A stretch of DNA of 34,441 bases from Bacteriovoracia bacterium (lineage in GTDB: Bacteria > Bdellovibrionota > Bacteriovoracia > Bacteriovoracales > Bacteriovoracaceae). The stretch covers positions 1-34,441 of the forward strand of contig JAUIBX010000013.1 in assembly GCA_030427595.1 (NCBI GenBank). Direction: 5' to 3'. The position numbers and the translations under genes are program-made. Below are positions 14,219-18,367 of the stretch, one piece after another. A model generated the notes under the pieces. That model did not search any database, was not told the DNA's origin, and worked only from the letters and a program-made list of their open reading frames with translations. Within the stretch, counting starts at the first letter, position 1, and each line of letters begins with the position of its first letter.

Positions 14219-15052
14219 ATGGGACTACGAATTAATACCAACACGCCGTCAATCTCGGCTCAACGTTCATTAAGTGTTACAAACAGGAGAATGAACGACA
14301 ACCTAAGGAAACTTTCCTCAGGAGAGAGAATTACGCGAGCAAGTGACGATGCTGCAGGTTTAGCAATTAGTGAAAATTTAAAAGCGCAAATACGAGGAAA
14401 TAGACAAGCAAAGCGAAACGCTAACGACGCTATTTCTATGATACAAACGGCCGAGGGAGGCTTAAGTGAGATTTCTAACATTATCATTCGACTTAGAGAA
14501 CTCGCAGTACAAGCTGCCTCGGATACAGTTGGGGCTACGGAGAGAGGTTTCTCCGACATTGAGTTTCAGCAGCTCAAAGAAGAGATCGACAGGATCTCGA
14601 AATCCGCAGAGTTCAACGGGATTAATCTTCTCGATGGCTCAGGAGGAATGCTGGAGTTTCAAGTCGGCGTACACAATGACCCTATACTGGACCGTCTGCG
14701 CTACGATGGTACAAAAGCTAATACTACCCTTGCAAACTTGGGACTTGTTGGCGAAACCGTTAGCACCAAAGAGGGGGCACAAGTCACGCTCAAAAAGCTT
14801 GATGATGCCTTGGTGCAAATTAACGGAGTTAGGTCCGAACTTGGGGCGACCCAGAACAGGCTCACATCAACGATCAACAACTTGGCGATCAGTGATGAGA
14901 ACCTTAGTGCGGCCAAATCGAGAATTAGAGATGTCGATGTAGCAGCTGAAACTGCAGACTTGGCAAGAAACAATATTCTCGTACAGGCAGGTACATCTGT
15001 GTTGTCACAGGCAAACCAGGCACCTAATGCTGCCCTCAAATTACTTGGATAA
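14219..15052 (+). CDS. Flagellin (second copy)
   Basis: A second short flagellin of 277 residues, clearly a paralogue of the one at 13151. It has MGLRINTNTPSISAQRSL, LRKLSSGERITRASDDAAGL, IRLRELAVQAASDTVGATER and C-terminal INNLAISDENLSAAKSRIRD and ARNNILVQAGTSVLSQAN. It ends in LKLLG rather than the usual hydrophobic-glutamine tail. AAGGAG lies seven nt before the ATG, inside a minicistron. The 219-nt gap from the first flagellin has no strong terminator; a TAAAG at 14058 could be part of a weak sigma-28 site but the -10 match is poor. A strong terminator follows. Confidence 0.96.
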   Translation: MGLRINTNTPSISAQRSLSVTNRRMNDNLRKLSSGERITRASDDAAGLAISENLKAQIRGNRQAKRNANDAISMIQTAEGGLSEISNIIIRLRELAVQAASDTVGATERGFSDIEFQQLKEEIDRISKSAEFNGINLLDGSGGMLEFQVGVHNDPILDRLRYDGTKANTTLANLGLVGETVSTKEGAQVTLKKLDDALVQINGVRSELGATQNRLTSTINNLAISDENLSAAKSRIRDVDVAAETADLARNNILVQAGTSVLSQANQAPNAALKLLG

Positions 15053-15153: not shown

Positions 15154-15600
15154 ACCCAGCCCTGAACTCCACCAAAACCAAAAGCGAAGGAAAACTGACA
15201 AAGACCCGCAAGCGCGCAGCGCGAGGAGTCTTCCGGCAGTTTGACGAAAGCGTTCGGAGGTAAATCTTCGAACTAGAGAAGTTGTTCTTGAAACAGGCAT
15301 GACAGACTAGCCAAAATCATCACCCAGCCCTGAACCCCACCAAAACTAAAAGCGAAGGAAAACTGACAAAGACCCGCAAGCGCGAAGCGCGAGGAGTCTT
15401 CCGGCAGTTTGACGAAAGCGTTCGGAGGTAAATCTTCGAACTAGAGAAGTTGTTCTTGAAACAGGCATGACAGACTAGCCAAAATCATCACCCAACCCCG
15501 AACCCCACCAAAACTAAAAGCGAAGCGAAATCGGCAAATGACCGCGGCAGCTTGCTGCAAGGTTATTCCGGCGATTGAGCGTAAGCTTGTCCTCGCACAT
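15154..15600. repeat. 168-bp tandem repeat (two near-identical copies plus a diverged third) with conserved nested inverted repeats
   Basis: Copy 1 is 15154-15321, copy 2 is 15322-15489; they differ at only a few positions. Copy 3 starts at 15490, keeps about 45 bases, then diverges in sequence but keeps the same architecture. In copies 1-2 AAACTG/CAGTTT encloses AAGAC/GTCTT and GCGC/GCGC. In copy 3 AATCG/CGATT encloses AATGACC/GGTTATT and GCAGC/GCTGC. A second stem-loop follows in each (GTTCG/CGAAC versus CATTC/GAATG). Minus-strand ORFs across this region are just repeat read-through. I do not recognise the element. Confidence 0.85.
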
Positions 15601-15673: not shown

Positions 15674-15699
15674 CCAAAGAAGGGAGACTTTCGTCTCCC
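15674..15699 (-). terminator. Terminator of the small hydrophobic ORF
   Basis: On the minus strand GGGAGAC, tetraloop GAAA, GTCTCCC is followed by TTCTTTGG. It starts about 10 nt after the stop of the 28-codon ORF at 15710-15796. Confidence 0.7.
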
Positions 15700-15709
15700 C
15701 CCTAAGGGC

Positions 15710-15796
15710 TTAAGAGTAAATAATCTCGTAGAGCATAACCAAAAGGTTAATCAACAAAATCAATACCTTAATCCATTGTAGGTACTTCTCCTCCAT
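15710..15796 (-). CDS. 28-residue hydrophobic peptide, type I toxin-like
   Basis: I found this ORF by reading the minus strand; it is very short. It starts MEEKYLQWIK, continues as an uninterrupted hydrophobic helix (VLILLINLLVMLYE) and ends IIYS. A charged N-terminus plus one membrane helix is the layout of type I toxins such as Ldr/Ibs/Fst and of some phage holin-like peptides. GGAGG lies five nt before the ATG, and a GNRA-loop terminator follows the stop. TTAACC, 17 nt, GATAAT on the minus strand upstream (about 15870-15842) is a possible promoter. No antisense RNA promoter is clear. A block TACCTACAATGG within the ORF is repeated about 117 nt upstream. Alternatives are a small membrane regulator or a chance ORF. 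Confidence 0.55.
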   Translation of the reverse strand: MEEKYLQWIKVLILLINLLVMLYEIIYS

Positions 15797-15905
15797 GAAA
15801 ACCTCCATTTAGGAGCCCTCGTCACTGAGGGAAATGGGGAGACATACCCAAAAAATATGCTATTATCAGCTAATCCCTTCTGGGGGTTAACCATTGTAGG
15901 TATAC

Positions 15906-15937
15906 AAAAAGCCCTTCTCTCGTAGAAGGGCTTTTTT
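15906..15937 (-). terminator. Terminator after the HIT gene (bidirectional)
   Basis: GCCCTTCT, loop CTCGT, AGAAGGGC with A5 on one side and T6 on the other can work on both strands. On the minus strand it follows the HIT gene stop by about 12 nt. Confidence 0.85.
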
Positions 15938-15948
15938 ATTTTTGAAAT

Positions 15949-18051: not shown

Positions 18052-18099
18052 TGAAAGGCTGATTGAAAGGGGGTTGGAGAAGAAAGAGAAAAAAAGAGT

Positions 18100-18367
18100 G
18101 GGTTTTGCTGGCTTCAAGTTTCCGCCCGTCATTTGACAGGTGGACGCAGTTAGTAACCACTTTAGGCTTCTCACCTCGAGCTTTCGCTGTTGTGAGCTTG
18201 CTCACCATGGCCAGGGACCGCTTCCTTGGTAGTTATTGTAGGGCGAAATACTGTATGCCAACCACAAAACCCATTTATGAGTATGCCCGAAAATAACGCA
18301 TTATTCAATGGTTAAATTTAGCCCTTGCTACCGTAAGTTTTTGAATATATTGAGTTTTGCTTATTTG
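18100..18367. other. Intergenic stretch with inverted repeats before the Tad operon
   Basis: No credible gene between 18017 and 18488; a 77-codon ORF at 18063 has no recognisable features. The stretch holds a perfect hairpin GTGAGC/GCTCAC near 18200, CGTC/GACG near 18130, and a segment that in reverse reads CAGCGAA...GAAGCCTAAA, a possible degenerate relative of the AGCGAC hairpin elements. Confidence 0.45.

Follow-up and report, generated by a model that had tools for sequence, protein, structure and literature searches.

A candidate type I toxin-antitoxin locus in Bacteriovoracaceae with a predicted divergent antitoxin RNA that may pair with its toxin mRNA at two sites

A divergent antitoxin RNA gene that lies outside the toxin gene is found in the TisB/IstR-1, ShoB/OhsC, Zor/Orz and DinQ/AgrB pairs, which, as described in passages of PMC4147584, combine a short hydrophobic peptide with a structured toxin mRNA; according to the same passages, the divergent antitoxins of E. 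coli bind the long leader of that mRNA, outside the initiation site and coding sequence, and Ldr/Rdl is present in several copies per genome, partly in tandem, with an antitoxin RNA of about 60 nt. The par/Fst system of pAD1 (RNA I/RNA II) has, as set out in part of PMC7472228, two pairing sites, of which one acts at initiation by way of direct repeats and the other lies at the 3' terminator, with the Shine-Dalgarno sequence in an intramolecular hairpin, and RNA II, which arises from convergent promoters, binds near both ends of the message. A 2025 abstract (PMC12390103) gives Proteobacteria, Firmicutes and Tenericutes as the only groups from which type I systems are so far known. The Bdellovibrio transcriptome report PMC3627812 lists 8 attack-phase non-coding RNAs and does not use the word "toxin", and no description of the pair reported below came up in searches of open-access papers on Bdellovibrio, Bacteriovorax, Halobacteriovorax or type I systems in general. 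Read from its sequence, this pair quite probably belongs to a new family of type I toxin-antitoxin systems that is restricted to one lineage and has a divergent antitoxin RNA that would act at two sites.

The window, i.e., the whole 34,441-nt stretch of DNA that was analysed (contig C42 of a 3.82-Mb genome in 360 contigs), carries on its minus strand a 28-codon open reading frame at 15710-15796, stop included, the product of which, MEEKYLQWIKVLILLINLLVMLYEIIYS, is a hydrophobic peptide of 28 residues with a single helix. The Shine-Dalgarno sequence GGAGG (15806-15802), inside a predicted small hairpin, is spaced 5 nt from the ATG, and a terminator-like stem with a GAAA loop follows the ORF at 15703-15678, though its U tract is imperfect. 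Thus, the first-pass annotation, which had described a minus-strand MEE peptide of this size with GGAGG at a good distance and a GNRA-loop terminator, was borne out. Folding of the segment 15870-15660 was better than that of 200 of 200 dinucleotide shuffles (z -4.2). A second in-frame ATG at 15808, four codons upstream of the MEE start, is absent from the two paralogs of the same genome, one of which (contig C2) has TTG at this position while the ORF of the other (contig C148) begins at the MEE codon.

Both paralogs comprise 28 codons from the same MEE start and are 61% and 50% identical to the window peptide, with 13 of 28 columns invariant among the three. Homologues with a synonymous bias, which had been suggested as a check on the gene, were found: pooled pN/pS was 0.49 for the three copies of this genome and ranged from 0.22 to 0.53 over all five groups tested. 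The peptide is under purifying selection and, given these values and two paralogs of the same length, the 28-codon gene is real, beyond chance.

Outside this genome, a peptide profile of the three copies gave weak matches, two of which, both in genome G140, had the same anatomy, and a sixth locus was recovered by a pattern search. A covariance model of the leader and ORF start of six loci (model R1) matched at E <=1 in 78 of the 129 genomes of the family, although many of the weaker matches may be due to chance. The 96 matches collected, from 72 sources, were reduced to 89 by dropping 7 that duplicated a place or were cut at a contig end, and a suitable small ORF was present in 69 of the 89, comprising 19 clear relatives of the window locus (class I), 49 members of a sister group (class II) and one match, L154, that was judged spurious and set aside. 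A second covariance model (model R2), trained on the mRNA part alone of the 19 class I loci, matched at E <=0.1 in 22 of the 368 genomes of the phylum, all of them among the 129 searched from the family of the window, and in none of the phylum genomes outside that family. Twenty loci scored at least 60 bits with this model and the next match 52.6 bits. Class I, the three copies of this genome included, thus consists of 20 loci in 7 of 368 phylum genomes and 6 genera, all confined to the same family, and in all 20 the ORF is intact. Among named genomes, query A11 retrieved one class II locus, in a Bacteriovoracaceae metagenome-assembled genome from which the family name used here is taken, and query A1 gave no match; neither query matched viral contigs.

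Certain class I loci depart from the common form. Five of them (L098, L117, L118, L119 and L120) start with M(R/K/T)K rather than MEE and, owing to the offset start codon, carry the conserved GAAGAG in another frame while keeping the leader and the layout of the two pairing sites described below, which suggests a constraint at the RNA level besides that on the peptide. Tandem arrays were noted at L117, L118 and L119 (G059:C21 and C10) and at L085 (G140:C5); since class I copies lie at the ends of two G059 contigs, the array may span an assembly gap.

The leader of the window mRNA is predicted to fold into a domain (15778-15850, minus strand) in which 15850-15834 pairs with 15796-15778, i.e., with the start and first codons, and which encloses two hairpins. 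The first of these holds the motif CAGTGA, which reads CAATGA in relatives, and the second holds the Shine-Dalgarno sequence. This leader-ORF pairing was specific to each locus in class I, where none of 5000 permutations was as good, and was weaker in class II (p 0.003 when the conserved start was left out). A long-range pairing between the 5' and 3' ends of the toxin mRNA, good in the three copies of this genome, failed across class I (permutation p 0.18) and was rejected.

In an alignment of the three loci of this genome, 12-20 nt of ORF sequence from within codons 3-10 recur upstream, adjoining a terminator hairpin that serves the opposite strand; differences between the copies that are tolerable as G-U pairs suggest a divergent antisense RNA. 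In the window, a plus-strand small RNA of about 69 nt (approximately 15873-15941), which the first-pass annotation did not mention, is accordingly predicted. It would be the antitoxin, and it carries complements of two parts of the message (here the pairing sites R1 and R2, distinct from the covariance models so named). R1, codons 5-8 (15773-15784, minus strand), is complementary to R1' at 15891-15902 in the small RNA (against mRNA 15784-15773), and R2, which runs from the last base of the stop codon into the 5' arm of the terminator (15696-15710, minus strand), is complementary with G-U pairs to R2' at 15874-15888 (against mRNA 15710-15696). R2' lies between R1' and the predicted promoter of the small RNA, GAGACA-16-TGC-TATTAT (15839-15866, plus strand), in which the spacer of 16 includes the TGC and the -10 overlaps, on the opposite strand, that of a candidate toxin promoter, TTAACC-17-GATAAT (15862-15890, minus strand). 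The predicted gene ends with a terminator (15906-15936, plus strand) composed of a 13-bp stem followed by TATTTTT. By sequence, the locus thus shows a feature characteristic of type I systems, namely a neighbouring predicted RNA gene with complementarity to the mRNA of the toxin.

The pairing and small-RNA promoter analyses covered the 18 of 19 collected class I loci that have upstream sequence (L118, one of the 20, lacks it). Promoters were scored with a simple sigma-70 matrix against mononucleotide shuffles, and related loci are not independent. On this basis the small-RNA promoter had p 0.065 at the window locus alone and a combined p of 6e-14 over the 18 loci, 10 of which have TTGACC or TTGACT 17-18 nt before the -10, while the toxin-strand promoter was above shuffles neither here nor in the class I set (combined p 0.93). 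In 16 of 18 loci, the predicted start of the small RNA was no more than 2 nt away from where R2' ends, and the two exceptions, off by 9 and 11 nt, were both loci where R2' had been drawn long. By a strict rule, a terminator was found 0-8 nt after R1' in 13 loci (expected 0.04), and in the other five a T tract accompanies a hairpin whose loop is longer. The predicted length of the small RNA in class I is about 65-85 nt.

The two complementarities were tested by counting transitions between each site and its copy, scored alike in both directions. For R1, the best repeat started at ORF +8 to +12 in every one of the 18 loci, which had first been picked partly for showing R1, and 20 transitions were G-U-compatible as opposed to 2 that were not (binomial p 1.2e-4). 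For R2, an unconstrained alignment ran into the terminator of the small RNA in some loci (27 compatible and 13 incompatible transitions) and was replaced by one that required R2' downstream of R1', a requirement chosen after the outcome of the first alignment had been seen; with it, 34 transitions were compatible and 2 incompatible. The corresponding p of 1.9e-8 against one half overstates the result, since non-cognate controls (306 combinations) were themselves at 298/166 for R2 (334/316 for R1), yet 34 to 2 is still clearly skewed against that ratio. Scores of cognate and non-cognate combinations were 24.4 and 12.6, respectively, for R1 and 18.9 and 10.5 for R2. In predicted duplexes, the best of 18 possible partners for a small RNA was the ORF start of its own locus in 17 of 18 loci and the 3' end of its own locus in 13 of 18, the remaining five preferring another partner. 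Of the three small RNAs of this genome, that of the window is predicted to be the most specific, and good pairing with the C148 message is also predicted for that of the C2 paralog. Another class I locus, L188, which entered neither the covariance models nor the pairing counts, had 2 compatible R1 transitions, 1 incompatible one and a short R2. At the window locus alone, 1.6% of non-cognate scores reach its R1 score, which is modest, and 12% reach its R2 score, which is not significant; the case rests on the family. Single-stranded target sites are not claimed, as R1 was of average accessibility in predicted mRNA folds and R2 mostly paired (mean unpaired 0.32 and 0.11, respectively, compared with 0.33 for the whole mRNA).

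The 49 class II loci, from the same bacterial family, encode peptides of the kind MEEMIRVL...QLAVILR and resemble class I in leader hairpin, Shine-Dalgarno hairpin or region, start region and type of peptide. Unlike class I, they had no R1' or R2' copies above the non-cognate level, the few high scores coming from neighbouring tandem copies, and control transitions (R1 68/43, R2 39/26) and scores were like those of non-cognate combinations. The predicted promoters followed opposite patterns. Thus, an antisense promoter convergent with the ORF from downstream had a combined p of 5.9e-14 in class II and 0.85 in class I, whereas the values for an upstream divergent promoter were 0.62 in class II and 3.7e-11 in class I.

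The neighbourhood of the window locus was also inspected. Two 168-nt direct repeats, 98% identical and followed by a diverged partial third copy, lie at 15154-15489 behind the second flagellin gene; they were found nowhere else in the genome at E 1e-5. These repeats, to which the first-pass annotation had pointed, were not seen at the paralogs; the relevant repeats are the short R1 and R2 pairs. A flagellin-like gene lies with its 3' end towards the window copy (14219-15052) and the C148 copy (L013:6544-7368), and the C2 copy has no such neighbour; this adjacency may be coincidence. No relative of the adjacent HIT protein was found at E 1e-20 in the 6 other genomes of the genus. With Rfam at the gathering score, a 6S RNA (RF00013, 60.7 bits; 18093-18278, minus strand) was the only match elsewhere in the window, and a tmRNA the only match in 10 related loci.

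Searches for known families placed none of the peptides. Curated profiles exist for the type I toxin peptide families Fst, Ldr and Ibs; the three peptides of this genome matched 0 Pfam/NCBIfam families at E 10, PADLOC gave no match, and one of 20 class II members reached the TisB_toxin profile at E 0.02, which is not significant. A peptide without a known toxin relative might instead be a non-toxic regulatory or structural membrane peptide that serves, for instance, to tune a membrane complex and is made under tight control of the divergent antisense RNA, and the peptide and small-RNA sequences fit such a role as they fit a toxin. This explanation is considered rather unlikely, since class I copies occur several to a genome, some of them in tandem arrays, and every copy has a predicted antisense RNA of its own and a differing neighbourhood, an arrangement that fits a toxin better. 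A decayed copy in G059 also fits a toxin better. In this second copy on its contig (L189, G059:C22:52191, within G059:C22:51300-52800), the start codon reads ATA and the ORF is lost while the small-RNA gene, divergent promoter and leader are kept nearly unchanged, so that it is apparently a solitary antitoxin, a single case of toxin loss with the antitoxin remaining. The first-pass annotation had held that a decayed ORF between conserved flanks would speak against its type I toxin candidate; one clear case of this kind was thus found, set against 20 intact class I ORFs. A second, less clear candidate for decay is L191.

Still less probable is that the functional product is the RNA itself, which would be structured, non-coding and paired with a partner RNA, and that the ORF is incidental. 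The strength of the RNA structure and the retention of the GAAGAG motif in a different frame in one class I subgroup favour such a view, which is nevertheless very unlikely given pN/pS of 0.22-0.53, diversity in class II that is highest at third codon positions, and the conservation of both a Shine-Dalgarno sequence and an ORF for a hydrophobic peptide in 20 class I loci. That the ORF arose by chance or is the leader peptide of a neighbouring gene might have been entertained for so short a frame when, as in the first-pass annotation, one copy was known, but with paralogs and relatives of the same layout, a terminator of its own, differing neighbours and purifying selection, it is scarcely credible. 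The toxin reading is probably the right interpretation of the locus. The type I toxin proposed at the outset gained support from the relatives, from purifying selection, from a leader that would bury the start site and from the adjacent predicted small-RNA gene, and the type I reading is supported above all in that the two small-RNA complementarities follow the message from locus to locus.

In the proposed type I mechanism, the minus-strand mRNA would encode a single-helix membrane peptide, translation of which would be held low by pairing of the leader with the start and first codons and by the Shine-Dalgarno sequence in its own hairpin. A divergent promoter overlapping that of the toxin would produce the small RNA (about 65-85 nt). 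Its 5' end would pair with the mRNA at the stop codon and terminator arm, and its middle with an early section of the ORF, about codons 4-10, that the initiating ribosome can reach. It is established that base pairing in the first codons of a message blocks translation initiation. The duplex would in this way prevent initiation and be exposed to RNase III, and a shortage of the small RNA would lead to synthesis of the peptide and its insertion into the membrane. Since the small RNA and the leader would compete for part of the same codons, repression is the sign of regulation that we infer; likewise, we infer from sequence the transcription of both RNAs, decay of the mRNA, toxicity and a physiological role. 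A broader proposal, favoured on balance and with less assurance than the type I assignment, is that classes I and II form an undescribed type I superfamily of one Bacteriovoracaceae-like family, in which one toxin-mRNA design is served by two antitoxins, a divergent two-end RNA in class I and a convergent 3' antisense RNA in class II; the divergent RNA would in effect reproduce both ends of its target in shortened form and would since have co-evolved with each paralog, giving partly insulated pairs within one genome.

Were this so, type I pairs would exist in a group where the searched literature described none, approximately 20 co-evolved RNA pairs, several per genome, would offer a test of how pairs diverge and yet stay specific, and the replacement of an antitoxin gene could be traced in a single toxin design that has two antitoxin arrangements. 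The layout would, in addition, combine the divergent IstR type with the two-site par type. Class I resembles TisB/IstR-1-type pairs in its short hydrophobic peptide, structured mRNA and divergent antitoxin RNA gene, the last by prediction, and differs in that pairing, which lies in the leader in those pairs, is predicted at the first codons and the stop and terminator region. It shares with par/Fst two separate pairing sites and a Shine-Dalgarno sequence in a hairpin, whereas the convergent promoters and single bidirectional terminator of par/Fst are replaced by predicted divergent promoters and a separate predicted terminator for each RNA; thus, with no downstream antisense promoter in class I (p 0.85) and separate terminators, the par/Fst layout was not seen. 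Nor does the peptide match Fst, and the class I small RNA, unlike that of par/Fst, repeats segments of its target. Multiple, partly tandem copies and a short antitoxin RNA recall Ldr/Rdl, but Rdl is encoded opposite the ldr leader and overlaps it, while the class I RNA gene lies outside the mRNA and would pair through copied segments, and there is no match to Ldr. What is new, as read from these sequences, is that a partner RNA is predicted, that it has two pairing sites and that these co-vary with the message across one bacterial family.
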